64,000 bases of DNA from Pseudoflavonifractor phocaeensis (GTDB taxonomy: Bacteria > Bacillota > Clostridia > Oscillospirales > Oscillospiraceae), in assembly GCF_021531815.1 (NCBI RefSeq), contig NZ_JADYUM010000011.1, forward strand, positions 1-64,000, in the 5' to 3' direction. This document shows, in pieces, positions 5,034 to 61,719 of the stretch; position 1 is the first letter of the stretch, and every line of letters begins with the position of its first letter. The notes below the pieces were generated by a model. The model worked only from the letters and a program-made list of their open reading frames with translations. It made no database searches and was not told where the DNA came from. A program made the translations under genes and the position numbers.

Positions 5034-5502
5034 GGGGCTCTCCCTCCGCTTTGGGCTCCAGCTTGTCCATGAGGAACAGGTAGTACAGTCCGGCGGCGAT
5101 GCCGCCCACCACCACGCAGATGTCCGCCACATTGAAGACGGCAAAATTCATAAACAGCACGTTAAACATATCCACCACAAACCCCCGGAAGGCCCGGTCG
5201 ATGAGATTGCCCACGGCCCCCGCCAGCAGCAGGGTCAGGGTGACTTTCCCCAGGGGATGGCGGAAAAAATTTTTCCACAGGGCCAGGGCCAGCACCACGG
5301 ACATGACCAGGGAAACCAGGGCCAGCAGCCAGGTGTGCTCCGAGAAAATGGAGAAGGCCGCCCCGGTGTTCTGCACATAGGTCAGCTCCATGAGGTAGGG
5401 AATGAAGGGGACATGGCCCCCAAGGGGGATATTCTGCAGGACCAGATATTTCACCAACTGGTCCAGAGCCACCAGGACCAGAGTAAGAATGACATAGGGC
5501 AT
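5008..5502 (-). CDS. lspA: Lipoprotein signal peptidase II
   Basis: 164 aa with four membrane helices. The two conserved aspartates are present, in GNLIDRA and in FNVADICV, and are the catalytic dyad that cleaves prolipoproteins at the lipobox. N-x-GAAFS (QNTGAAFS) is also conserved. Substrates in this window include the solute-binding protein at 46842-48167 and the lipoproteins at 30119-30604 and 62771-63307. It overlaps rluD. Confidence 0.95.
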   Translation of the reverse strand: MPYVILTLVLVALDQLVKYLVLQNIPLGGHVPFIPYLMELTYVQNTGAAFSIFSEHTWLLALVSLVMSVVLALALWKNFFRHPLGKVTLTLLLAGAVGNLIDRAFRGFVVDMFNVLFMNFAVFNVADICVVVGGIAAGLYYLFLMDKLEPKAEGEPHGDLKADR

Positions 5503-5609
5503 GGATCGTTCCTCCGCAGCCGGGTATCCTCCGCTTGTCGCAGCGGGTATTTTTTCTTTATTGTAACATATCCCGTCCCTCAGAGAAAGACCCTTTCCCC
5601 CGAAATTTT

Positions 5610-6506
5610 TTATCCCTTCGTCCCCGTTCCCGCCGCCGGAAGGGCGGGCTTTCTGGCAAAGATCGTCAGCAGCGTGGCCCCGAAGACCATGGCGGCGCCC
5701 AGCAGCAGCCGCAAGCTCAGCCGCTCCCCCAGGAACAGGATGCTGAACAGGGTGGCAAATACCGGCTGGGTGGAGACGATGAGGGAACTGCGGTTGACGG
5801 TGGTCACCCGGTAGGCGGAGATGGCCAGGGTATTGCACAATCCGGCGCCGATCAGTCCGCTGTACAGCAGCAGCAGCACCGGCTTCACTTCAAAGCAGGT
5901 GGGCCAGCTCCCGGTGACCGCCGTGGGCAGCAGCCAAAGCACCCCGATGGTGGTCATCTGGACCACACTGAGTCCGGTGGAGTCCGTCCCCGGTGTCCGC
6001 ACGCTGCGGGAGGAATAGATGGAGGTGGATGCGGACATGAAGGCGCCCATTAGCAGGATCCCGTCTCCCCACTCAATATAAAAGGGGAAGTGCACCGTCA
6101 TCACCACCACGCCGGTGAAGCAGATCAGCGCCGCCGCCCCCTGCCAGAAGCCGGGTTTGACCCGGAACAGCAGGCAGTTCAGCAGCGGCACCAGCACCAC
6201 AGAGGCGGAGCTGATGTAGGCCGATTTGCTGGCGGAGGAGAATTGCAGGCCGCAAGTTTGAAGCCACATGGCCACGCCCAGCATGCAGCCCATGATAAAG
6301 CCCCGGCGCAGCGTAACGGCGCTCCACCGGATCTTACGGCACATGACCGCAAACAGGACCAGACCGCCCATCAGGAACCGGGCCCCGGTGATAAAACTGG
6401 GGGCGTAGATGCCGGAGATGGCCTTTACGCTCACAAACCGCAGTCCCAGGCAGACCTGGCAGAACAAGATGCTCAATTCTCCCTTTGTCTGTTCACTTAA
6501 CCTCAT
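5610..6506 (-). CDS. EamA/DMT-superfamily transporter, member of the local LysR regulon
   Basis: 298 aa with ten hydrophobic segments in two EamA repeats. DMT carriers of this type usually export metabolites or amino-acid-like solutes. The ATG at 6506 has the good site GAGGTGG. Upstream at 6583-6652 is a close copy of the promoter/operator region shared by the LysR gene and the enolase-superfamily operon. This carrier is therefore probably induced with that catabolic operon and may export its end product or exchange it for substrate. That role is inferred from regulation, not from the protein itself. Confidence 0.82.
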   Translation of the reverse strand: MRLSEQTKGELSILFCQVCLGLRFVSVKAISGIYAPSFITGARFLMGGLVLFAVMCRKIRWSAVTLRRGFIMGCMLGVAMWLQTCGLQFSSASKSAYISSASVVLVPLLNCLLFRVKPGFWQGAAALICFTGVVVMTVHFPFYIEWGDGILLMGAFMSASTSIYSSRSVRTPGTDSTGLSVVQMTTIGVLWLLPTAVTGSWPTCFEVKPVLLLLYSGLIGAGLCNTLAISAYRVTTVNRSSLIVSTQPVFATLFSILFLGERLSLRLLLGAAMVFGATLLTIFARKPALPAAGTGTKG

Positions 6507-6582
6507 GGTTTTCCACCTCGACGGAGTCCCTTCTCCCACGCACGGGAACGCGGGGCCCCCAAGTCAATCTGCTCCACCTGTC

Positions 6583-6652
6583 ATTGTAGCACAGGAGTTT
6601 TTCAAGAAAAGCACTTCTTTCTTGATACCGCTACAACTTTCCGTTGTACATG
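6583..6652 (-). promoter_or_regulatory. LysR-regulon element copy 1 (upstream of the EamA gene)
   Basis: About 70 bp, closely matching 12324-12394. It contains ATTGTAGCA (the complement of a TACAAT -10 facing the EamA gene), the shared block GCACTTCTTTCTT, and the perfect inverted repeat TACAAC-N5-GTTGTA at 6632-6648, whose core ACAA-N7-TTGT is LysR-box-like. Confidence 0.65.
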
Positions 6653-6684
6653 GAAAAGGCGTCCGGAGGGCTCCGGACGCCTTG
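6653..6684 (-). terminator. Terminator of the CoA-transferase operon
   Basis: On the minus strand the stem AAGGCGTCCGGA / TCCGGACGCCTT is followed by TTTTCC. It separates the five-gene operon from the EamA gene, which has its own promoter. Confidence 0.85.
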
Positions 6685-6702
6685 GTACTTCTGCTGCGGT
6701 GT

Positions 6703-8001
6703 TTAAAGCAGCCCCATTTCCTTAGCCTTGAAGGTCAGCTCGTCCCGGAACTTGGGATGGGCCACCTGGATCAGGGCCTTGGTCCGCTCCGCGGGGCTCT
6801 TGCCCACCAGCTTGGCCACGCCCTGCTCGGTGACCACGTACTCGATGACGGTACGGGGCAGGCTGACGGGGGTGCCGGGCTTGAAGCAGGGAGTGATCTT
6901 GGAGAACTTGCCGTTCTTGGTAATGGACTCCAGCACCACGATGGACTTGCCCTCCAGGTTGGCGGCGGCGCCGGAGGCGAAGTTGCAGATGCCGCCCATG
7001 CCGCTGTACTGCTTGCCCTTCAGGAACTCGGCGTTGGCCTGGCCCATCAGGTCGATCTCCACAGCGTTGTTGATGGCGGTCATCCGGTGCTGCCGGTAGA
7101 TGACGCCGGGGTTCAGCACCTCCTGGCAGTTGTTCAGCTCCACGCCCTGGTTGTGGTCCAGCCAATCAAACAGGCGCTTGGGGCCCACCACCTGGGTGAA
7201 CACGGATTTACCCTTCTTCTCGCTCTTGGCCCGGTTGGTCACGATCCCCCGCTCGGTCAGCAGCATCAGGATCTCGCCGTACACCTCGGTGTGGACGCCC
7301 AGGTCCCGCTTGTTCTCCAGGTACATCAGGGAGGCGGCGTTCAGGCGCCCCAGACCCACCTCAATGGTGGCCTCATCGGGGATCAGCTCGGACAGGTAGC
7401 CGCCGATGGTGCGGTAGGTGTCGGCGTTCTCCTCGCCCATATCCACCTCGGCACCCTGGAGCAGATAGTTCTCGGCGTCCTCATCCACGATGTAATCCAC
7501 TTCGCTGACATGGATCAGGTTGCTGCCGTAGATGAAGGGGTAGTTGGTATTGGTCTCCACGATGACCAGGTCCGCGTCCTCACAGGCCTTGCGGACAAAG
7601 TCGGTGCAGGTGCCCATGGACATATAGCCGTGGGCGTCGGGCTTGGTGACCTCCAGGAAGGCGACGTTGCACTTCAGGGCGGTGGAGGCGATCTTGTTCC
7701 AGTGCCAGTATTCGCCGGGGATATAGTCCACCCGCTTCTCGTCAAACAGCTGATAGGTGCTGTTGTTCAAAAAGCTGGTGGCCGGGTGGAACCATTCGCC
7801 CACCCCCGGGGCGTCCGGCATAAAGTTGGTGATGGGCTCGTAATAGAATACGTCCTCCAGGTCCTTCCGCTCCACCAGCTTACGCAATACGGCGCGGCAG
7901 TCCCGGTTGCCCGTCATGATGCGGTCGCCGCTCTTGATCATATCGGCGGCCTGCTGGGCGGTGATACATTTCTTTTTGAATTCTTCCTGCCAAAGTGCCA
8001 T
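6703..8001 (-). CDS. Acyl-CoA:carboxylate CoA-transferase (4-hydroxybutyrate/butyryl-CoA transferase type)
   Basis: 432 aa, full length for the acetyl-CoA hydrolase/transferase family. It has the N-terminal and C-terminal halves typical of the group. The predicted catalytic glutamate is E239 in LGVHTEVYGE, close to the position of Glu238 in the clostridial 4-hydroxybutyrate CoA-transferase. A glycine-rich CoA-site loop (YSGMGGICNFASGAA) comes later. It moves CoA between acetyl- or butyryl-CoA and an organic acid. As last gene of the operon it probably activates the imported or processed acid for the crotonase and acyl-CoA dehydrogenase. The exact acid is not deducible. Confidence 0.85.
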   Translation of the reverse strand: MALWQEEFKKKCITAQQAADMIKSGDRIMTGNRDCRAVLRKLVERKDLEDVFYYEPITNFMPDAPGVGEWFHPATSFLNNSTYQLFDEKRVDYIPGEYWHWNKIASTALKCNVAFLEVTKPDAHGYMSMGTCTDFVRKACEDADLVIVETNTNYPFIYGSNLIHVSEVDYIVDEDAENYLLQGAEVDMGEENADTYRTIGGYLSELIPDEATIEVGLGRLNAASLMYLENKRDLGVHTEVYGEILMLLTERGIVTNRAKSEKKGKSVFTQVVGPKRLFDWLDHNQGVELNNCQEVLNPGVIYRQHRMTAINNAVEIDLMGQANAEFLKGKQYSGMGGICNFASGAAANLEGKSIVVLESITKNGKFSKITPCFKPGTPVSLPRTVIEYVVTEQGVAKLVGKSPAERTKALIQVAHPKFRDELTFKAKEMGLL

Positions 8002-8009
8002 TTTGCACT

Positions 8010-8090
8010 CCTCCTATACATCAGAAAGGAAGGGGAATCCCTCCGGAGGCCATCCCCTGGAGCAGGAATCCCCTTCCCCGAATCTGTTTC
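8010..8090 (-). other. Hairpin between the crotonase and CoA-transferase genes
   Basis: An imperfect stem of GGAAGGGGA with TCCCCTTCC encloses a loop of about 30 nt, without a strong T run. It may be a partial terminator or an mRNA processing/stability element within the operon. Confidence 0.4.
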
Positions 8091-8092
8091 TA

Positions 8093-8908
8093 TTACTTCT
8101 TGCCTTCCTGCTCAGCCTTCCAGGCCATGGCAGCCTTCAGACCCTGCTCGTTGACGATCTTGTTGAACTCAGCCTGCTCCTGGACCTGGTTGATGCGGCA
8201 CAGGTTGAACATCTCGGCGGCGAACTTCTGAGCCTGGTGCATGCCCATGATCTCATAGCTCTGGTTGATCTCATACTTCAGGATGCGCATGGCCTCGGCG
8301 GGCATGTCGGCCAGACGGTTGGCGATCTCCATGGTCTTGGCCTCCAGCTGGTCGGCGGGCACCACGAAGTTGACCACGCCGGCCTCCTTCATATCCTGAG
8401 CGGACCAGAAGTCGCCCAGGAACAGGAACTGCTTGACCCGGTTCATGGACATTTTCCAAGGCTCGGGCAGCACATCGCTGGCGTAGGAGTACTTCAGCTC
8501 GGGCTCGCTGAACTGGGCGTTATCTGCCGCCACCACCAAATCGCTCATAAATGCGAACCAAACACCGCCGCCGATGCAGTAACCCTGAACGGAAGCGATG
8601 ACCGGCTTCTTGGCCTCCCATATCGTGCGCAGGGTATTCAATTCCATCAGGCTGTTCTCCCGGCGGGCGGGGACCTCAACGATCGGAGAACCGATGCTCT
8701 CTTTCAAATCGAATCCGGCAGTGAAAGCTTTCTCGCCGGCGGCACAGAGGACGATCACGTTGGTATCGGGATCTGCGTCAGCACGGCGGATAAAATCGCC
8801 GAAGTTCTCCATCAGTACGCTGTTTAGCGCATTACGAACCTTGGGGCGGTTCAGGATGACCTTGCTGATTTTGCCGACTTTTTCGTACAACAGCACTTCT
8901 TCACTCAT
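8093..8908 (-). CDS. Crotonase-family (enoyl-CoA hydratase/isomerase) enzyme with altered active site
   Basis: 271 aa with the crotonase fold. CoA and oxyanion-hole motifs are present: AFTAGFD (61-67) and GYCIGGG (109-115). Aligned by hand to rat enoyl-CoA hydratase, the second catalytic acid (Glu164) is kept as E137 in SEPEL, but the Glu144 position is W117 in GGGVWF. The residues after it (SYASDVLPEPW) also depart from the usual GTIPGAGG loop. So plain hydration of crotonyl-CoA is doubtful, and isomerase, dehydratase or hydrolase chemistry on an unusual acyl-CoA is possible. The ATG at 8908 follows GAAAGGGAG; it is the fourth gene of the operon. Confidence 0.82.
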   Translation of the reverse strand: MSEEVLLYEKVGKISKVILNRPKVRNALNSVLMENFGDFIRRADADPDTNVIVLCAAGEKAFTAGFDLKESIGSPIVEVPARRENSLMELNTLRTIWEAKKPVIASVQGYCIGGGVWFAFMSDLVVAADNAQFSEPELKYSYASDVLPEPWKMSMNRVKQFLFLGDFWSAQDMKEAGVVNFVVPADQLEAKTMEIANRLADMPAEAMRILKYEINQSYEIMGMHQAQKFAAEMFNLCRINQVQEQAEFNKIVNEQGLKAAMAWKAEQEGKK

Positions 8909-8992
8909 GATAATAGCTCCCTTTCGTCTCATTAAAATATTAGGTAAAGATGATATATGGTTCCTCAAATGGCAGAAGTGTACCCCCTGCCA

Positions 8993-9547
8993 TTAGTCAG
9001 CAAATTCGGGGGCAGTGTAGGAGGAACCCGGGCGCAGCACCCGCTCCCAACTGCCGATATGGACCCGTTCCGCTTTGAAACGGTCTTTGACCGGCCTCTC
9101 ATAGGCCGGATACCCCACCGGGACCACCGCCAACACTTCCACATAGTCGGGGAAGCGGTACAGTTCCCGCAGGGCCGCGATTTTTTCCTCGTCCGGATAG
9201 ATCCCGCACCATACGGCGCCCAGCCCCTGGTGTTTCGCTTCGATGAGCAGGTTTTCCGTGGCGGCGGAACAGTCCTGGGGCCAAAAATCAAACCGGTATT
9301 TCTTCTGCGTCGTGTCGGCGCAGACCAAGATGGCACACTTTGCCTGTTTCAGCATTTCCACATGGGGTGAGATCTCCATGATGGGTAAAAAGTCTTCCGG
9401 CCGCTCCAGCACGATGAAGTGCCAGGGCCGTTCGTTCCCGGAGGAGGGGGCGCACATGGCCGCCCGGAGCAGCGCCTCTATTTTTCCCCGCTCCACCGGC
9501 TGTTGGGTATACTGGCGCACACTGGTGCGCTCAAAGATTTCTTTCAT
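8993..9547 (-). CDS. Nitroreductase-family FMN oxidoreductase
   Basis: 184 aa. The family N-terminus RTSVRQYTQQPV, the SSGNERPWHF phosphate/FMN segment and the GLGAVWCGIYPDEE stretch are all clear. The family reduces quinones, nitro groups or enone-like substrates with NAD(P)H, and some members catalyse ring or side-chain redox steps. The gene sits between the symporter and the crotonase, so it probably acts on a pathway intermediate. The tail contains many aromatic and charged residues but no extra domain. The start is ATG at 9547 after AAAGGAGG. Confidence 0.85.
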   Translation of the reverse strand: MKEIFERTSVRQYTQQPVERGKIEALLRAAMCAPSSGNERPWHFIVLERPEDFLPIMEISPHVEMLKQAKCAILVCADTTQKKYRFDFWPQDCSAATENLLIEAKHQGLGAVWCGIYPDEEKIAALRELYRFPDYVEVLAVVPVGYPAYERPVKDRFKAERVHIGSWERVLRPGSSYTAPEFAD

Positions 9548-9569
9548 AAATCCTCCTTTTCTGTGCCGT

Positions 9570-9608
9570 TCCGCAGCCCGCGGCGGCTGGGCCGCCGCGG
9601 GCTGCCGG
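9570..9608 (-). other. Strong GC-rich hairpin inside the catabolic operon
   Basis: GCAGCCCGCGGCGGC pairs perfectly with GCCGCCGCGGGCTGC across 3 nt, 23 bases before the nitroreductase Shine-Dalgarno. There is no T run, so it is more likely an mRNA stability or processing stem that adjusts gene expression levels than a terminator. Confidence 0.6.
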
Positions 9609-9646
9609 AAAATACATACGAATTGGAACGGCAAAAAGGACGCTGG

Positions 9647-11029
9647 TTACTTGGCGGCTTCCGCGTTTTTCGGCTGGGTGCACAAGCTCACCACGACAAA
9701 TGCAATCGCGGAGGGAAGAATGGGGAAAATGGAGGCATAGGGGAATGCGATGCCGCAGAACTTGTTCAGGAACACAAAGAAGATGCCGGTCACCGAAGCT
9801 GCCACCGCGCCGGGCTTGGTAGCGCCCTTCCAGAAAATGCCGCCGACGAACATGACCAGGGTACCGGCGCACATAAAGGTATAGGCATAGGACAGCATTT
9901 TAATGATGGAGGTGGTGCCGAGAGCCACATACAGGGTGATCAAACCGGCGGCAAAGGTAATGACTTTCGCCAGGCGGTCCAGCTTTTTCTCGTTGGGGTT
10001 TTTGTTGATGAACTGCAAATAGATGTCTTTGGTGATGGAAGCGGTCACATAGATCAGCTGAGAGTCCACGGTGGACATGATAGCGGCCATCAAAGCGGCA
10101 ATCATCAGCGCGCCGACAAAGGGCGGGAAGACTTCCAGCATAACCTTGAAGATGATGCTGCCGGCGGCGGCGTCGGGGAACAAAGCGCGGCCGTACATGC
10201 CGATCAGCACGGGCAGGAACACATAGGGCAGCAGAAGGACACCGCCCCAGAACGCGGAGCGAACAGCGGTCTTTTCATCTTTGGCGGAGACGTTGCGCTG
10301 GAACGAGGCCGCGGAGATCAGGCCGAACAGCATGGTGGGGATCGCGTTCATAATGATAACTTCAAAATCCATGTTAAAGAGGTTCCAGCTGCCGGCGGGC
10401 AACGCGGCGTGGATCACGTCAAAGGCGCCGTTGCCCAGCATATAGGCGATGGAGATCAGCGTGCAGGCAACAATGACGGCGACCTGGATCACGTCGGTCA
10501 TCATAACGCCCCATTGGCCGGACATGGAGGCGTAGATGAACACCGCAAGGCCCACAAGGCAGACACCGAGGATGGGATTCAGCCCCAGGTAAGAGAACAG
10601 GTTCTTGCCGGCGGTGATCTGGCCGGCCATAATGCTGATGGCGGCGCCGCAGTTGATCACGGCGAAGATCGTACCGGTGATGTGGCCGCCGTATCGCTTG
10701 TCCAGACATTCAGACAGGGTCAGGCTGTCGGTGCGGTACAGTTTCTTGGCGATGACCATGGCAAAGACGAGATAACTCAGACAGGCTCCGACTCCGTACC
10801 ATACGCCGGCCAGTCCGTAATTGGCACCGTTTTCAGCTCCGCCGACCACCACTCCGTTGCCGATATGAGAACCCATGTAAGAACCGCAAACCATCAGAAA
10901 GCTGCCCTTTTTTGCGGCGGTGACGAACTCTTCGAAATTTTTTGATGTATTGCGACCTATGTAGCCGATTCCCATCATCGCGACCATGTAGACAATCAGA
11001 ACGATGACGCTGAGTGTTAACGTATTCAT
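9647..11029 (-). CDS. Sodium:solute symporter (SSS family)
   Basis: 460 aa with about 13 hydrophobic segments and the SSS pattern of small-residue helices (GGAENGANYGLAGVWYG, then GQITAGKNLF). There is a sodium-site-like stretch in helix 8 (LMAAIMSTVDSQLIYVTASITKDIY), which contains the STVDS motif usual for the family. Family members import organic acids, sugars, proline, pantothenate and similar solutes with Na+. Its place directly after the enolase-superfamily gene makes it the likely importer of the operon's substrate. The start is ATG at 11029 after GAGGAGG. Confidence 0.9.
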   Translation of the reverse strand: MNTLTLSVIVLIVYMVAMMGIGYIGRNTSKNFEEFVTAAKKGSFLMVCGSYMGSHIGNGVVVGGAENGANYGLAGVWYGVGACLSYLVFAMVIAKKLYRTDSLTLSECLDKRYGGHITGTIFAVINCGAAISIMAGQITAGKNLFSYLGLNPILGVCLVGLAVFIYASMSGQWGVMMTDVIQVAVIVACTLISIAYMLGNGAFDVIHAALPAGSWNLFNMDFEVIIMNAIPTMLFGLISAASFQRNVSAKDEKTAVRSAFWGGVLLLPYVFLPVLIGMYGRALFPDAAAGSIIFKVMLEVFPPFVGALMIAALMAAIMSTVDSQLIYVTASITKDIYLQFINKNPNEKKLDRLAKVITFAAGLITLYVALGTTSIIKMLSYAYTFMCAGTLVMFVGGIFWKGATKPGAVAASVTGIFFVFLNKFCGIAFPYASIFPILPSAIAFVVVSLCTQPKNAEAAK

Positions 11030-11119
11030 AATTTACCTCCTCAGTTTTCCCATTGTTTTTTTGCTCTCTCCGTGTGTTATCTATCTAAAAACCGCTTGCG
11101 CGGATAGCACACCTCCTTC

Positions 11120-12274
11120 TTATCCCTTCAGAATGCTGTACTTCTTCACCAGGTCCTCGTCGATGTCGATTCCGAAGCCCGGTCCCTGCGGCATGGGGAT
11201 GCAGCCGTCGGCCTTGTCCACCAGGAAGTTCTCCTTCAGCACGCCCTGGAAAGCCTGGGGCGTCAGCGTGGGAGGATCGCAGGGATATTCCAGCCAGGTG
11301 AAGTTGGGATAGGAAGCCACCAGATGCATGCTCTGGAGCACTCCCATACCAGGGATGTAGGCGTGGGGATTGACGATCTTGCCGTAACTGTCCGCCAACG
11401 CCGCGATCTTGCGGATATAGCTGATGCCGGTACTCATGGTGCAGTTGGGCTGCAGAATATCATAGCACCCCTTATCCAGCATGATCTTGAAATCAGGGAT
11501 CCCGATGTTGATCTCGCCGCCGGCAATGGGGATCTCCACCTCGTCGTTGAGCCGGGCCAGACCGTCGAAGTCATAGCGCCAGAGGGGCTCTTCCAGCCAG
11601 GTACAGCCCAGCCGCTCCATCTCCCGGGCGGTATCCCGTGCCCGGCTGTAGCTCCACACCGGCGGGAAGCCGTTGTTGTTGCGCTCGCAGGCGGTGCCCT
11701 GGTTGGCGTCCACCATGATCTCCAGCTTGTCGCCGATGGCCTCCCGCACATTTTCGATGATGGCGATGTCGTCCTTCATCTTCTCGCTGGAGAAGCGCAG
11801 CTTTACCGCCTTGAAGCCCATTTCCACCAGGCGATGGGCGTCTTCCTTCCGCTGCTCCTTGGAGCGGATCTCGCCCCAGGCGGCATATACCGGGATACGG
11901 TCACGGGCCGCGCCCAGCAGCTTGTACACCGGTAGGCCGGCCGCCTTGCCGATGATATCCCAGCAGGCGTTCTCAATGACCCAGGGGCGGGTGGCGATCC
12001 GGGCCACATTCCGCAGCTTCAGCATCAATTTCTCAATATCAAAAGGAGAATCGCCCACCACAAAGGTCTTGGCGTACTCCATGGTTTCGCACACAATACG
12101 CAGGATCCCGTGAGGCGCCTCCATACAGGAGTAACCTGTAATGCCCTCATCCGTATGGACCCTGACCACAAAGATGACCTGTCCCTTCTCCGTCTTGCCG
12201 GGATACCACGTGGGGTGGAATTCCTGCGGGAAGGGGACTTCTACACAATCATAGGTAATGTCAGTGATTTTCAT
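11120..12274 (-). CDS. Enolase-superfamily enzyme, mandelate racemase subgroup
   Basis: 384 aa, with an N-terminal capping domain (1 to about 120) and the modified TIM barrel. Catalytic positions visible: K158-L-R160 on the second barrel strand, metal ligands D189 (MVDAN), E228/E229 (WLEEP) and E254 (AGGE), and a D272/H304 pair (YDILQPN and NPHAY) like the Asp-His dyad of the mandelate racemase subgroup. Members abstract an alpha proton from a carboxylate to racemise, isomerise or dehydrate hydroxy acids. The insertion TACERNNNGFPPVWSY after the Asp ligand would line the active site. It is first gene of the operon, divergent from LysR. The substrate is unknown; a sugar acid or 2-hydroxy acid is the usual case. 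Confidence 0.85.
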   Translation of the reverse strand: MKITDITYDCVEVPFPQEFHPTWYPGKTEKGQVIFVVRVHTDEGITGYSCMEAPHGILRIVCETMEYAKTFVVGDSPFDIEKLMLKLRNVARIATRPWVIENACWDIIGKAAGLPVYKLLGAARDRIPVYAAWGEIRSKEQRKEDAHRLVEMGFKAVKLRFSSEKMKDDIAIIENVREAIGDKLEIMVDANQGTACERNNNGFPPVWSYSRARDTAREMERLGCTWLEEPLWRYDFDGLARLNDEVEIPIAGGEINIGIPDFKIMLDKGCYDILQPNCTMSTGISYIRKIAALADSYGKIVNPHAYIPGMGVLQSMHLVASYPNFTWLEYPCDPPTLTPQAFQGVLKENFLVDKADGCIPMPQGPGFGIDIDEDLVKKYSILKG

Positions 12275-12323
12275 TGCGCTTCCTCCTAAAAACAGTTTGT
12301 CCGGATGATCGGAACTTGCTGAT

Positions 12324-12394
12324 ATTGTAGCAAAAGAGTTTTTCGATGAAAAACACTTCTTTCTTTGTACTGTTACAATTTTTTGTTGTATAAT
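12324..12394. promoter_or_regulatory. LysR-regulon element copy 2 with divergent promoters
   Basis: For the LysR gene: TTGTAC (12365-12370), 18 bases, TATAAT (12389-12394), with the inverted repeat TACAA-N7-TTGTA (12374-12390) between them, which suits autorepression. For the minus-strand operon: a TACAAT -10 at 12329-12324 with TTTTCA 17 bases upstream. The element is repeated at 6583-6652. Confidence 0.7.
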
Positions 12395-12427
12395 GTACAA
12401 CGTAAATCTACAGAGGAGGTCCTCAAA

Positions 12428-13312
12428 ATGACGATCCGGCAGTTGACTTACTTTGTCACGATCTACAAGAACGGCAACTTGCTGAAGGCCGCGGAGGAAC
12501 TGTATATTTCCCAGCAGGCGCTGAGCCGCGCCCTGAGCCTGTTGGAAACGGAATTGGGGGTTCCTTTATTCACCCGGAGCCACAAGGGGGTCGCCCCTAC
12601 CCCGGCGGGGACGGAGCTGTTCCGCAGCGCCCAGCCAGTACTGCAGGCCATGGCCGCCTTGGAATCCCATATGAACGAATTTATCCAGCTGGGGAACGGG
12701 CAGCTCCGCATCGGTCTGGCCGCCGCCACCCGCTATCTGACCAGCAGGAGCATCTGGCAGAATTTTCAGAAGAAATATCCCCAGATCACCCTTCAGGTCA
12801 AGGAATACCCCTCTCTGGAAGGGCTGAGGCTGCTGGAAAACGATCAGCTGGATGTGCTGACCTTCTCCGACTACGACGCCGGGGAGGAATACAACCAGTA
12901 TCCGCTGAAAAGTTGGGACCGGGTCCTTCTGGTCCCCCGGACACACCCGCTTTATGAAAAAGATTACGCGGAACCCGGCGACCTGGCCGGGGAACACATC
13001 GCCTTCTGCGCAAATCCCATGATCTACCGCCAGATCCAGGACTTTATCCGGGAAAACAACTTCCCGCCCACTGACATCACCCTGGTCAGCGACACGCTGT
13101 ACATGTACGAGACCTGCCACTCCGACCAGTGCCTGGGGATCGCGATCCAGGGGTGTTTCTCCGACGTCTTCCTGCCCCAGTTTCCCGATCTGAAGGCGCT
13201 TCCCTTCCGGGAGCCCTTCTTCCCATACACAGTTACGGCCATTTCCAAAAAGGGCCATCCCATGGCTCCCGTGATCGCCGATCTGGCGGACTACTTGTCC
13301 CAGCAGCTGTAA
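12428..13312 (+). CDS. LysR-family transcriptional regulator of the catabolic cluster
   Basis: 294 aa with an N-terminal winged helix-turn-helix (residues 1-60, with AAEELYISQQALSRALSLLE as the recognition region) and a periplasmic-binding-like effector domain from about 90. It is transcribed away from the enolase-superfamily gene with a shared promoter region, the standard LysR arrangement. Its probable targets are that operon, itself, and the EamA gene, all of which share the same element. The effector is presumably the pathway's substrate or an intermediate. The start is ATG at 12428 after GAGGAGG. Confidence 0.92.
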   Translation: MTIRQLTYFVTIYKNGNLLKAAEELYISQQALSRALSLLETELGVPLFTRSHKGVAPTPAGTELFRSAQPVLQAMAALESHMNEFIQLGNGQLRIGLAAATRYLTSRSIWQNFQKKYPQITLQVKEYPSLEGLRLLENDQLDVLTFSDYDAGEEYNQYPLKSWDRVLLVPRTHPLYEKDYAEPGDLAGEHIAFCANPMIYRQIQDFIRENNFPPTDITLVSDTLYMYETCHSDQCLGIAIQGCFSDVFLPQFPDLKALPFREPFFPYTVTAISKKGHPMAPVIADLADYLSQQL

Positions 13313-13576
13313 AAGGACGTTTTCCCGCGCTAGCAATTTAGCGCGTTGGCGATGAGGAATAGAATACTACTTTCCATCTGTTGGAACTGACCAGCCCTCA
13401 CAGTGCACCAAGCCCAAGAACTTGTCAAAGGGAAGAGGGGGGAGAAGGGAACCTTCGACAGGCGGAGCGGAAACTTGCTTAGACGGAGAGAGGTGAGACC
13501 GCTCCGCCGCTCTTTTGTCTTACTCGGATACACTGTGAGGATTGGCCAGCCAAGAGAAAGAGAAGAGAACTGTAAA
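13313..13576. other. Intergenic stretch with a 10-bp stem hairpin, between lysR and etfA
   Basis: No gene seen. 13461-13470 (GGCGGAGCGG) pairs perfectly with 13499-13508 across a 28-nt loop, followed on the plus strand by CTCTTTTGTC. This is a possible late terminator for the LysR gene or a structured element. GCGCTAGCAATTTAGCGC at 13328-13345 is a second small hairpin. Confidence 0.4.
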
Positions 13577-14581
13577 TTAAACTGCCTGCTTCGCCCGGTA
13601 GGCCTTGATGGCCTCGGTCAGCTTGGGCACGATCACGCTCAGGTCGCCCACAACGCCCAGGTCGGCCAGCTTCATCATGGGAGCGCCTTCGTCCAGGTTG
13701 ATGGCGACAATATACTCAGAGCCTTCCATACCGGCCTGATGCTGAATGGCGCCGGAGATGCCGCAGGCAATATACAGGTTGGGGCGGACGGTCTTGCCGG
13801 TCTGGCCCACCTGCCGGTCCTTTTCGATCCAGCCGCTGTCCACCGCCACACGGGAAGCGGACACCTCGCCGCCCAGAACGTCGGCCAGCTCCCGCAGGGG
13901 CTGATAGCCCTCGGGCCCGCCTACGCCGCGGCCGCCGGAGACCAGGATCTTGGCCTCGGTGATATCCACGCTCTTTTTCTCGTTCCGGTTGATCTCCAGG
14001 ATCTCCACGTTCATGTCGCTCATGGACAGTCCGGCGTCCACCAGCTCCACCTCGCCGGTCCGGCTCTCGTCCTTCTCAGGCAGAGGCATGACGCCGGGGC
14101 GGACGGTGGCCATCTGGGGACGGTAGTCCTTGCAGACGATGGTGGCCATGATGTTGCCGCCGAAGGCGGGACGGGTCATCAGCAGAAGCTTGGACTCCTC
14201 CTCAATGGCCAGGCTGGTGCAGTCGGCAGTCAGACCGGTGTGGACGCGGCCGGCGACCCGGGGGGCCAGGTCACGTCCAATGCTGGTGGCGCCGAAGAGC
14301 ACGATGTCGGGATCATAGGTATGGATCACATGGGTCATGGCCTTGGCATAGGGCTCGGTGGTATAGTGCTCCAGCACCGGGTGGTCCACCACCAGCACCT
14401 TGTCCGCGCCATAGTGGCACAGCATGTCGCTCAGTCCGGCCACGCCGCTGCCCATCAGGACGGCAACCACCTGCTCATTCAGTTCAGCGGCCAGTCTGCG
14501 GGCCTCGCCCAGCAACTCGATGCTCACCTTCTGGACCATCCCGGCGCGCTGTTCAATCGCTACGAAAATATCCTTGCTCAT
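13577..14581 (-). CDS. etfA: Electron transfer flavoprotein, alpha subunit
   Basis: 334 aa. The N-terminal domain shares the ETF fold, and the C-terminal FAD domain (about 205-325) has the diagnostic VSGGRGVGG, GEVSASRVAVDSGW and QVGQTGKTVRPNLYIACG blocks. With EtfB it accepts electrons from, or donates them to, an acyl-CoA dehydrogenase. The gene order acyl-CoA dehydrogenase-etfB-etfA is that of clostridial bifurcating complexes, where the reaction couples enoyl-CoA reduction to ferredoxin reduction by NADH. Bifurcation itself is an inference. It lies ten bases from etfB. Confidence 0.95.
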   Translation of the reverse strand: MSKDIFVAIEQRAGMVQKVSIELLGEARRLAAELNEQVVAVLMGSGVAGLSDMLCHYGADKVLVVDHPVLEHYTTEPYAKAMTHVIHTYDPDIVLFGATSIGRDLAPRVAGRVHTGLTADCTSLAIEEESKLLLMTRPAFGGNIMATIVCKDYRPQMATVRPGVMPLPEKDESRTGEVELVDAGLSMSDMNVEILEINRNEKKSVDITEAKILVSGGRGVGGPEGYQPLRELADVLGGEVSASRVAVDSGWIEKDRQVGQTGKTVRPNLYIACGISGAIQHQAGMEGSEYIVAINLDEGAPMMKLADLGVVGDLSVIVPKLTEAIKAYRAKQAV

Positions 14582-14591
14582 AGCTGCCTCC

Positions 14592-15380
14592 TCAAATAAT
14601 ATGGCGCTCGATCAGCTTCGCCATAATCGCGTCCACTGCCTCATCCGCAGACAGGCCGCTCAGCACGGTGCCGCTGGTCTTCGCCTGCTTGGTAAAGGAC
14701 TGGCGGACATTGGTGGGAGAACCTGCCAGGCCGATCCACGCGGGATTCAGATCGTCCTTCAGATCGTCAAAGCCCAGGATCTTGACTTCCTTGTTGTAGG
14801 CGTCCACGATGCCGCCCACGCTCATATACCGGGGCTCCGCCAGCTCGCTCAGGGCGGTGATCAGGCAGGGGGTCTTGACCTTCAGCAGGTGGTACTGGTC
14901 CTCAAACTGCCGTTTGACCACCAGGCTGTCTCCCTGGACCTCCACGCCCTCGGCATAGCTGACCTGGGGGATCCCCAGCTGCTCGGCGATCTGGGGGCCC
15001 ACCTGGGCGGTATCGCCGTCGATGGCCTGCCGTCCGGTGATGACCAGATCGAAGCCGATCTTCCGGAGGGTGGCGCCCAGGATGGTAGCGGTGGCGTAAG
15101 TGTCGGAGCCGCCGAACTCCCGGCCGCTGACCAGAACGGCCTCGTCACAGCCCATGGCCAGGGCTTCCCGGAGGGCCACGTCGGCCTGGGGGGGACCCAT
15201 GCAGACCACGGTGACGCTTCCGCCCACCTGCTCACGGATCCGGAGGGCAGCCTCCAGACCGGTCTTGTCGTCATGGTTGATGATGCTGGGAACACCGTCA
15301 CGGATCAGGGTATTGGTCTTGGGGTCCAGCCTCACTTCAGCGGTGTCGGGCACCTGCTTGATACAAACAACGATTTTCAT
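14592..15380 (-). CDS. etfB: Electron transfer flavoprotein, beta subunit
   Basis: 262 aa with the family start KIVVCIKQVPDT and the GRQAIDGDTAQVGPQIAE signature segment. It lacks the long C-terminal extension of FixA-like proteins and matches the length of clostridial EtfB, which holds a second FAD in bifurcating forms and AMP in others. It is the middle gene of the operon, 16 bases from the acyl-CoA dehydrogenase gene and 10 bases from etfA. Confidence 0.95.
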   Translation of the reverse strand: MKIVVCIKQVPDTAEVRLDPKTNTLIRDGVPSIINHDDKTGLEAALRIREQVGGSVTVVCMGPPQADVALREALAMGCDEAVLVSGREFGGSDTYATATILGATLRKIGFDLVITGRQAIDGDTAQVGPQIAEQLGIPQVSYAEGVEVQGDSLVVKRQFEDQYHLLKVKTPCLITALSELAEPRYMSVGGIVDAYNKEVKILGFDDLKDDLNPAWIGLAGSPTNVRQSFTKQAKTSGTVLSGLSADEAVDAIMAKLIERHII

Positions 15381-15396
15381 TTCTTCAGCGCCCTCC

Positions 15397-16539
<1,143 letters not shown>

Positions 16540-16598
16540 AACTACCTCCCAAAACAAGTATCTGCAAACTGTCACCGGAGTATCTTGTTGATGGCCTT

Positions 16599-36286: not shown

Positions 36287-37894
36287 ATGGCAGTGAAGTA
36301 CATTTTCGTCACCGGCGGCGTGGTTTCCGGTCTGGGCAAGGGCATCACAGCGGCCAGTCTGGGCCGTCTGCTGAAGCAGCGGGGCCTGCGGGTGAAGGTC
36401 CAGAAGCTGGACCCCTATCTGAACGTGGACCCGGGAACCATGAGCCCCTACCAGCACGGCGAGGTATTCGTCACCGATGACGGCGCGGAGACCGACCTGG
36501 ACCTGGGCCACTATGAGCGCTTCATCGACGAAAACCTCACCTTTAATTCCTCCGTTTCCTCCGGCAAGGTGTATTGGGACGTGCTGAACCGGGAGCGCCG
36601 GGGCGACTATCTGGGCGGCACCGTCCAGATCATCCCCCACATCACCGGCGAGATCAAAAACCGCATCTACGCCCTGGACACGCCGGATACCGACGTGGCC
36701 ATCGTGGAGATCGGCGGCACCGTGGGCGACATCGAGAGCCAGCCCTTCCTGGAGTCCATCCGCCAGGTGGCCGCCGAGCGGGGCCGCCAGAACGTGATGT
36801 TCGTCCACGTCTCCCTCATCGTGGCCATCCCCGGCACCGGGGAGCTGAAGAGCAAGCCCACCCAGCACTCCTGCAAGGAGCTGCTGTCCCTGGGCATCCA
36901 GCCCGACGTCATCATCTGCCGCAGCGACTATCCCGTCCCCAAGGACATTCTGGAAAAAATCTCCCTGTTCTGCAACATCCCCGTGGAGAACGCCATCCCT
37001 AACCTCACCGCCGACATTCTTTATGAGGTCCCCCTGATGCTGGAGCGGGAGGGGCTGGCCGACGTGGTGGTCCGCCGCCTGGGGCTCATCTGCCATATGC
37101 CCGACCTGACCGAATGGGCCACCATGGTCCACCGGGCCAAGAACCCCAAGGGCTGCGTGGAGATCGCCCTGGTGGGCAAGTATGTGGCCCTCCACGATGC
37201 CTACCTGTCCGTGGTGGAGGCCCTGACCCACGGCGGCATTGAGAACGACGTGAAGGTGAAGGTCCGCTGGGTGGACTCCGAGACCGTCACCGACGGCAAC
37301 GCCGCCGAGATCCTGGCGGGGGCCGACGGCATCCTGGTCCCCGGCGGCTTCGGTGACCGGGGCATCGAGGGCAAGATCTCCGCCGTCCGCTATGCCCGGG
37401 AGCACAAGGTGCCCTTCCTGGGCATCTGCCTGGGCATGCAGATGGCGGTCATCGAGTACGCCCGCCACGTCTGCGGCATGGAGGACGCCCACTCCAGCGA
37501 GCTGTCCCGGACCACCGCCCATCCGGTCATCGACCTGATGCCCGACCAGCGGGGGGTGACCGCCAAGGGCGGCACCATGCGCCTGGGCGCCTATCCCTGC
37601 CGCATCACCGGCCACGACACCTTTACCTATCAGGCCTACGGCTCCGACGAGATCAGCGAGCGCCACCGCCACCGCTACGAGTTCAACAACGACTACCGCC
37701 AGGTCCTCACCGACGCGGGCCTGACCCTGGCCGGCCTGTCCCCCGACCAGCGTCTGGTGGAGATCGTGGAGCTCCACGACCACCCCTGGTTCGTGGGCGT
37801 CCAGTTCCATCCGGAGCTGAAAAGCCGGCCCAACAAGGCTCATCCCCTGTTCCGGGAGTTCATCGGCGCGGCCAAGAAGCAGAAGGCCGAATAA
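36287..37894 (+). CDS. pyrG: CTP synthase
   Basis: 535 aa with the synthetase domain (1 to about 265; [41 protein letters not shown]) and the glutaminase domain (about 290-535; nucleophile Cys in FLGICLGMQ, His/Glu in FHPE). It makes CTP from UTP, ATP and glutamine. The last 22 codons are copied downstream at 38002-38067. Strong codon bias and its own promoter. Confidence 0.97.
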
Positions 37895-38001: not shown

Positions 38002-38075
38002 CCGGCCCAACAAGGCTCATCCCCTGTTCCGGGAGTTTACCGGCGCGGCCAAGAAGCAAGAGGCCGCTGAGGAAT
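38002..38075 (+). pseudogene. Detached copy of the pyrG 3' end
   Basis: 38002-38037 is identical to 37825-37860. 38002-38067 matches 37825-37890 in 62 of 66 bases, and then continues to its own stop (GCTGAGGAATAA). The copy encodes [24 protein letters not shown] in that frame, two residues longer at the end than pyrG, so it is not a simple recent copy but looks like a pyrG allele end. It has no start or promoter. Confidence 0.85.
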
Positions 38076-60351: not shown

Positions 60352-60453
60352 GGGAAAGTTAATTGCAGCAAACTCCTCCGGGTACAGAAAAGGAGCGCCC
60401 GAAACCTGCGTCCCTTTGTGCAGATTTTAACGGTCGGGCCACCGGGACATAAA

Positions 60454-60539
60454 AAACGGAGCGCCCAGCCGGACGCTCCGTTCCTTTTCCTATTTACTAT
60501 GTTCAGGCCAGGGCGGCGGTGATGATAGCCATGGAATAG
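60454..60539 (-). pseudogene. Detached copy of the pta 3' end and terminator
   Basis: 60501-60539 matches 60743-60781, the last codons of pta including the stop, in 38 of 39 bases. The adjoining terminator stem ACGGAGCG / CGCTCCGT (60456-60481) matches the true pta terminator at 60705-60730. It encodes only the last residues SMAIITAALA and cannot function. Confidence 0.85.
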
Positions 60540-60700: not shown

Positions 60701-60735
60701 TAAAACGGAGCGCCCAGCTGGACGCTCCGTTCTCT
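60701..60735 (-). terminator. Terminator of pta
   Basis: On the minus strand, ACGGAGCG / CGCTCCGT followed by TTTTA. Confidence 0.8.
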
Positions 60736-60744
60736 CTATTCTGT

Positions 60745-61719
60745 TCAGGCCAGGGCAGCGGTGATGATAGCCATGGAATAGACCTCCTGGGCGTTGCAGC
60801 CGCGGGACAGGTCGTTGATGGGGGCATTCAGGCCCAGCAGGATGGGGCCGTAAGCCTCGAAGGAGCCCAGGCGCTGGGCGATCTTGTAGCCGATGTTGCC
60901 GGCGTTGATGTCGGGGAAGATGAAGGTGTTGGCGTAGCCGGCCACCTTGGAGCCCTTGCACTTGGTCTGGGCCACCCGGGGGGAGACAGCGGCGTCGAAC
61001 TGCAGCTCGCCCTCGATGGGCACGTTGGGCATGGCCAGCTTGGCCTTCTCGGCGGCGTTGCGCATCTTGTCCACGTCCTCGCCCTTGCCGGAGCCCAGGG
61101 TGGAGTAGCTCAGGAAGGCCACCTTGGGGTCGATGCCGAAGATCTTGGCGCAGGAGACGGTCTCGGAGGCGATCTCCACCAGCTCGTCCTCGGTGGGCTT
61201 AATGTTGATGGCGCAGTCGGCCATGGCCAGCACGTCGTTGTCGCCGGTGGCGGAAGGACGGACCAGGATGAAGCAGGAGGACACGATGGAGTTGCCGGGC
61301 TTGGTCTTGACCAGCTGCAGGGCGGGACGGACGGTGTCGGCGGTGGAGTAGGTGGCGCCGCCCAGCAGGGCGTCAGCCTCACCCATGGCCACCAGCATGG
61401 TGCCGAAGTAGTTGCCCTTCTTCAGGGCGGCGCGGCAGTCGTCCTCGGTCATCTTGCCCTTGCGCAGCTCCACCATGCGCTTGACCATGGCGTCCATGCC
61501 GGCGTAGGTCTCGGGGTCGATGATGATGGCGCCCCGGATGTTGAAGCCGGCCTCCTCGGCGGCGGCCAGAACCGCGGCCTCATTGCCGATGAGGATGGGG
61601 GTCAGGAAGGTACCGGACAGCAGGCGGGCGGAAGCCTCCAGGATACGGGGGTCGGTGCCCTCGGTGAACACGATCTTGCGGGGGTGTGCTTTCAGGATCT
61701 CGATGAGTTTCTTGAACAT
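60745..61719 (-). CDS. pta: Phosphate acetyltransferase
   Basis: 324 aa, the short single-domain Pta. Recognised by IVFTEGTDPRILEAS at the start, ADALLGGATYSTADTVRPALQ, and TFIFPDINAGNIGYKIAQRLG with GPILLGLNAPINDLSRGC near the end. Converts acetyl-CoA and phosphate to acetyl phosphate, giving ATP through acetate kinase, which is not in the window. The promoter TTGCAT (61802-61797), 17 bases, TACCAT (61779-61774) is plausible. Its 3' end is duplicated downstream. Confidence 0.95.
   Translation of the reverse strand: MFKKLIEILKAHPRKIVFTEGTDPRILEASARLLSGTFLTPILIGNEAAVLAAAEEAGFNIRGAIIIDPETYAGMDAMVKRMVELRKGKMTEDDCRAALKKGNYFGTMLVAMGEADALLGGATYSTADTVRPALQLVKTKPGNSIVSSCFILVRPSATGDNDVLAMADCAINIKPTEDELVEIASETVSCAKIFGIDPKVAFLSYSTLGSGKGEDVDKMRNAAEKAKLAMPNVPIEGELQFDAAVSPRVAQTKCKGSKVAGYANTFIFPDINAGNIGYKIAQRLGSFEAYGPILLGLNAPINDLSRGCNAQEVYSMAIITAALA

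Follow-up and report, generated by a model that had tools for sequence, protein, structure and literature searches.

In a stretch of 64,000 nucleotides of Pseudoflavonifractor phocaeensis DNA (hereafter, the window), an element found upstream of a gene for an EamA-family transporter (element A) is repeated upstream of a run of probable breakdown genes that is divergent from lysR1, a gene for a LysR-type regulator (element B), and we consider it likely, judging from the sequences themselves, that A and B are promoters of one small regulon, activated by a regulator of LysR type. Our best reading of element A is that of an activator-dependent promoter of the EamA gene, which would answer to LysR1 and perhaps to its paralog LysR2, coded further along the same contig. 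The type of switch is ordinary; what is new is the proposed link of a lone transporter gene to the breakdown genes nearby. The features of the window are listed in Table 1.

Table 1. Genes and proposed regulatory elements, with positions in the 64-kb window.
Feature	Positions	Strand	Remarks
EamA-family transporter gene	5610..6506	-	PF00892, E 1.4e-28; GAGGTGG before ATG at 6506
Element A	6583..6650	-	Proposed operator-promoter of LysR type for the EamA gene; aligns with B at 82% in 67 columns, layout common to B, C and L023
A -10 TACAAT	6583..6588	-	TGC before hexamer; no report from promoter scan
A 18-base block, minus strand AAGAAAGAAGTGCTTTTC	6606..6623	-	Proposed activation site, overlaps -35 region; one of three 0-mismatch places in genome
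A dyad TACAA-N7-TTGTA	6632..6648	.	Proposed recognition site, centre -64
Inverted repeat + TTTT	6656..6683	-	Probable terminator of operon, upstream of A; palindrome 93% over 28 bases; T run by eye
CoA transferase gene, acetyl-CoA hydrolase/transferase family	6703..8001	-	PF13336, PF02550
Enoyl-CoA hydratase/isomerase family gene	8093..8908	-	PF00378
Nitroreductase-family gene	8993..9547	-	PF00881
Sodium:solute symporter (SSF) gene	9647..11029	-	PF00474
Enolase-superfamily (MR_MLE) gene	11120..12274	-	First gene of proposed operon; PF13378, PF02746
Element B	12324..12392	-	Proposed LysR-type operator-promoter of operon, shared with lysR1
B -10 TACAAT	12324..12329	-	TGC before hexamer; -35 TTTTCA, 17-base spacer; promoter scan 9/12
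B 18-base block	12348..12365	-	Proposed activation site
B dyad TACAA-N7-TTGTA	12374..12390	.	Proposed recognition site, centre -65
TATAAT overlapping B dyad	12389..12394	+	Possible lysR1 -10, by eye; no report from promoter scan
lysR1, LysR-type regulator gene	12428..13312	+	PF00126, PF03466

LysR1 is a LysR-type regulator by its scores in Pfam, which are well above the cut-offs for both domains (77.5 bits against 26.6 for PF00126 and 71.1 against 28 for PF03466), and a comparison with the PDB matched two entries, 3fzv and 6m5f. Its best NCBIfam match, over nearly the whole length, is the CidR family (NF047520), but the 127.8 bits obtained are far under the cut-off of 415 bits, which leaves LysR1 outside that family, and the neighbouring genes are other ones as well. 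The enolase-superfamily protein matched no PDB chain at E<=1e-40. As far as family names can tell, a CoA transferase, an enoyl-CoA hydratase and an SSF symporter would be suited to taking up an organic acid and breaking it down by a CoA-linked route. On the 3' side of lysR1 and convergent with it, frames that resemble by eye two electron-transfer flavoprotein subunits and an acyl-CoA dehydrogenase (13577-16575) may serve the same pathway; they hold no 0-mismatch copy of the conserved block described below.

The original prediction had aligned the two elements over about 70 bases with a single-base gap. The likeness is there, with one 1-base gap and 82% identity over 67 columns (6583-6648 in A, 12324-12390 in B; E 1.2e-11 in a search against the bacterium's own 2.67-Mb genome), but it ends at 6648/12390, and the last bases that had been included (CATG versus TAAT) match poorly. 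Two other observations were borne out: the inverted repeat TACAA-N7-TTGTA is kept in both elements with 0 mismatches, and TACAAT occupies the -10 position upstream of a minus-strand gene in each. These two copies of the inverted repeat are the only exact ones in the window, where up to 2 mismatches give 10 matches for 4.29 expected, and the 21-base left part was found, with up to 3 mismatches, at the places of A and B only (0.01 expected). The Smith-Waterman score of the pair is 72, while B, dinucleotide-shuffled 400 times and aligned each time to the 86.9-kb contig, gave a mean of 25.0, a standard deviation of 2.5 and a maximum of 36, which rules out a chance likeness between two AT-rich promoters. 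The elements have a G+C content of 38% (A) and 26% (B), against 57-63% in their 500-base flanks. A known RNA element was ruled out as the identity of the repeat, no Rfam 15 family matching positions 5400-13700 at its gathering score.

The element is not restricted to this pair. The same contig carries, past the end of the window, a third copy, C (C2:79358-79426; a search with B matched it at C2:79381-79401), between an SSF gene on the minus strand and the second, paralogous lysR on the plus strand. LysR2 is 54% identical to LysR1, and the genes of this second cluster correspond to those of the window with 73% identity for the CoA transferase, 96% for the enoyl-CoA hydratase and 97% for the SSF symporter. 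The dyad of C is included in a longer palindrome (C2:79408-79450; 43 bases, 84%, its arms being perfect over 15 bases by eye), which the other three copies lack. The fourth copy is in contig CALWVX010000233.1 (hereafter, L023), which we assigned, by contig number and translations, to G037, a metagenome-assembled genome of the same genus. There, it stands between the lysR and the enolase-superfamily gene of an orthologous cluster, in which lysR (52%) is divergent from the enolase-superfamily gene, itself followed by SSF, nitroreductase, enoyl-CoA hydratase (76%) and CoA-transferase genes; genes without an identity figure were named by reading their translations. Neither AAGTGNTTTT nor AAAANCACTT occurs in the 224 bases after this CoA-transferase gene, where, by eye, another gene starts.

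The most conserved part of the elements is an 18-base block, GAAAARCACTTCTTTCTT, found with 0 mismatches to its two-letter pattern at exactly three places in the 2.67-Mb genome, namely A, B and C, all on this contig. The other matches at up to 3 mismatches were five, each with 3, and the reversed control gave eight at the same limit; these counts rule out a wide repeat family.

When the contig was compared with itself, the A/B pair ranked seventh, behind two paralogous gene stretches, a 207-bp repeat, two local direct repeats of short length and lysR1/lysR2; the matches listed below it were lysR coding sequence or self-palindromes. The 207-bp direct repeat (C2:74880-75086 and C2:80384-80590, beyond the window; 92% identical) flanks the second cluster, corresponds by eye to the 3' end of a gene like htpG, and has the look of a scar left at the end of a gene by insertion or recombination. 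A 65-bp direct repeat in the window (37825-37889 and 38002-38066; 94%), made of the 3' end of a gene (CTP synthase by eye) and a second copy just downstream of that gene, is the same kind of event, and a third gene-end duplication is possibly seen at 60453-60539 and 60702-60781, where an 87-column direct repeat (86%) holds a terminator-like palindrome and maybe a gene end.

All four copies share one layout. Read toward the downstream gene, which always has the direction of the element, a 17-base dyad (consensus TRCAA-N7-KTGTR) is followed after 7 or 8 bases by the 18-base block, ending in AAGTGYTTTTC, and after 17 or 18 more by a -10 hexamer (TACAAT, TACAAT, TAGAAT and TATAAT for A, B, C and L023, respectively); 30 of the 69 columns are invariant. 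If transcription is taken to start 7 bases beyond the -10, the dyads are centred at -64, -65, -65 and -63, near the -65 expected of a recognition site, and AAGTGYTTTTC falls at about -41 to -30 in all four sites, a position that makes it a putative activation site. Both TACAAT hexamers are found in the context TGCTACAAT on the minus strand, with TG (TGC) before the hexamer, in the place of which L023 has TGT and C has TAA. A consensus scan reported a sigma-70-like minus-strand promoter at B (9/12, 0.4 expected), no such site at A and no promoter for lysR1 at B; as promoters that depend on an activator commonly have a weak -35, the scan does not settle the matter. The dyads of B and L023 run into TTGTATAAT, a possible -10 of lysR; A has TTGTACATGG at the matching place, and no plus-strand gene there. 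A lysR divergent from the target gene, with a common operator, is found at B, C and L023, and A has no adjoining lysR. The T-N11-A motif of LysR-type sites is absent from the dyad, A and B having C-N11-G at the matching positions of TACAA-N7-TTGTA, which weakens membership in a LysR regulon without excluding it, as many described sites deviate from the consensus.

In the mechanism that we propose, one dimer of a LysR tetramer would occupy the dyad near -65 as its recognition site, and an inducer would bring the other dimer onto AAGTGYTTTTC near -35, the regulator thus recruiting RNA polymerase to promoters whose -35 is poor and whose -10, in the case of A and B, is extended. Element B would drive an operon made of the enolase-superfamily, SSF, nitroreductase, enoyl-CoA hydratase and CoA-transferase genes, and LysR1 would probably repress its own gene, since the dyad of B overlaps a TATAAT that may be the -10 of lysR1. 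Located just past the probable terminator of this operon (an inverted repeat that the terminator scan, requiring five T where four are present, does not report), A would provide the EamA gene with its own inducible promoter under the same control, and C would play the same part for the second cluster with its own LysR2.

This arrangement agrees with what is described for other LysR-type regulators, whose recognition sites mostly have their centre near -65 and whose activation site can overlap the -35, according to the accessible part of PMC12016517. In the same excerpts (PMC12016517), BhbR1 of Pigmentiphaga kullae H8 acts at Pphbh1, a divergent promoter with a dyad near -65 and a second site overlapping the -35, and a pair of redundant catabolic clusters is treated as well, each of which has a regulator of its own. 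The recognition site of BhbR1 is ATA-N9-TAT with T-N11-A, unlike the TRCAA-N7-KTGTR found here, which has no T-N11-A at its centre, and our case differs further from Pphbh1, as presented in those excerpts, by a block common to three promoters, one of which stands by itself in front of a transporter gene (PMC12016517). Site 1 of BenM/CatM, ATAC-N7-GTAT in the accessible part of PMC6628147, has the same N7 arm spacing in a promoter region of LysR type, but with other letters and with a T-N11-A where our dyads have C and G. One more point counts against the proposed mechanism: the block is more conserved than the dyad, and the activation site is described, in the excerpts of PMC12016517, as the low-affinity one.

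This same point would be accounted for if the block were the site of another regulator, the LysR proteins acting on the dyad only and A, B and C being co-regulated chiefly by that other protein: the block has 0 mismatches in the three elements and exceeds in conservation a dyad whose arms differ in C. We nevertheless hold this to be very unlikely, because the dyad accompanies the block at nearly fixed spacing in all four copies, three of which are directly beside a lysR of one family, because the position of the block fits an activation site, and because the genome has no other 0-mismatch block, though a separate regulator could well have one.

Whether A is a working promoter can be approached from its substitutions. 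At the columns common to B, C and L023, A agrees in 30 out of 31, and it matches B at 26 of the 38 others (Fisher p 0.002); treated in the same way, the other sites gave p values of 0.045 (B), 0.005 (C) and 0.063 (L023). A less dependent test, counting the columns where A equals B when C equals L023 (33/37, against 23/32 elsewhere; p 0.063), is only suggestive. A is thus more conserved at the shared columns, which, coming from four sites and one alignment, lends support to its function without amounting to proof. From this agreement and from the layout of B, C and L023, we infer that the EamA gene probably belongs to the LysR regulon, as the original prediction had it, although the lack of T-N11-A and of a scan promoter at A speak against it.

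One has to keep in mind that A and B flank the proposed 5.7-kb operon as direct repeats, one at each end, and that their mutual likeness (56 of 69 columns) exceeds that of either to C or L023 (42-47 columns), as it would in two copies left by recombination or local duplication, A being then a passive scar with no regulatory role; the other gene-end repeats of the contig make duplication plausible as an origin. Such an origin is compatible with function, though, and the absence of a role seems improbable to us in view of the 30 shared columns kept out of 31, against 26 of 38 others. A is also as near to C and L023 (44 and 44 columns) as B is (42 and 47), and it retains an extended -10 and faces, at a distance of 77 bases, a gene whose ribosome-binding site is good.

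The dyad is also informative as to which regulator would act on A. Its arms in A equal those of B (TACAA/TTGTA), one base away from those of L023, so that TACAA/TTGTR covers the sites of LysR1 and of the L023 regulator, and C has TGCAA/GTGTA. Residues 28-34 are SQQALSR in LysR1 and in the LysR of L023 and SHQALGR in LysR2, which thus departs from both by having H for Q at helix position 29 and G for S at position 33, two positions that we take to touch DNA in BenM. LysR1 is favoured for A because of these common arms and of the SQQALSR that it shares with the L023 protein. Control of A mainly by LysR2 would be in line with the block, identical in A and C (GAAAAGCACTT...) and different by one base in B (GAAAAAC); with the dyad arms and the two helix positions both pointing away from LysR2, and with lysR1 at 5.7 kb from A against about 73 kb for lysR2, we give it little credence. 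As the blocks of A and C are equal, some cross-talk between A and LysR2 may nonetheless occur beside the control by LysR1 that we favour. A rather doubtful extension would be that the two regulators share the activation block while their recognition dyads have parted, resulting in a partly insulated network of three promoters in which the block is the most conserved part, the free-standing A having brought a lineage-specific transporter into the regulon.

Relatives have little to offer for comparison. A combined pattern, composed once the four sites were known, was found in 2 of 64 genomes of the genus, at four places (three in the genome studied here and one in G037), and nowhere in the reversed control; a further block match with one mismatch, in G007, lies inside a 269-aa frame and was taken as chance. 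The EamA protein had no match in the other 63 genus genomes (E<=1e-40) or in the other 299 of a family sample (E<=1e-50), and since no relative searched keeps the gene, A is without comparative support of its own. Searches with LysR1 returned only the two own copies from 300 family genomes (E<=1e-60) and 394 order genomes (E<=1e-40), as did a three-LysR profile in 338 phylum genomes (E<=1e-75); each of these samples covers only part of a larger group, and scoring was limited to the first few candidates in every genome. The enolase-superfamily protein matched its own genome only among 400 family genomes (E<=1e-130), a sample evidently without G037, which holds such a gene. Scanning the genome contigs gave no relative of LysR1 and three loci for the enoyl-CoA hydratase, L023 alone being close (76%). 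In the genus, the hydratase matched 3 of 64 genomes, the own one, G037 and G034 (47%); the 47% loci, L020 and L022 (3.2 and 3.8 kb), adjoin frames like electron-transfer flavoprotein and another CoA transferase, with no lysR seen among frames of at least 120 aa. A literature search found no paper on this gene combination, nor on the DNA-contact residues.

If our reading of these elements is right, a pair of uncharacterised LysR proteins in a lineage of the Oscillospiraceae would have a regulon of three promoters, and a lone EamA transporter would be tied to a CoA-linked breakdown cluster, of which it would probably handle a substrate or a product. The two clusters would also offer a small natural example of how paralogous LysR proteins diverge along with their operators.
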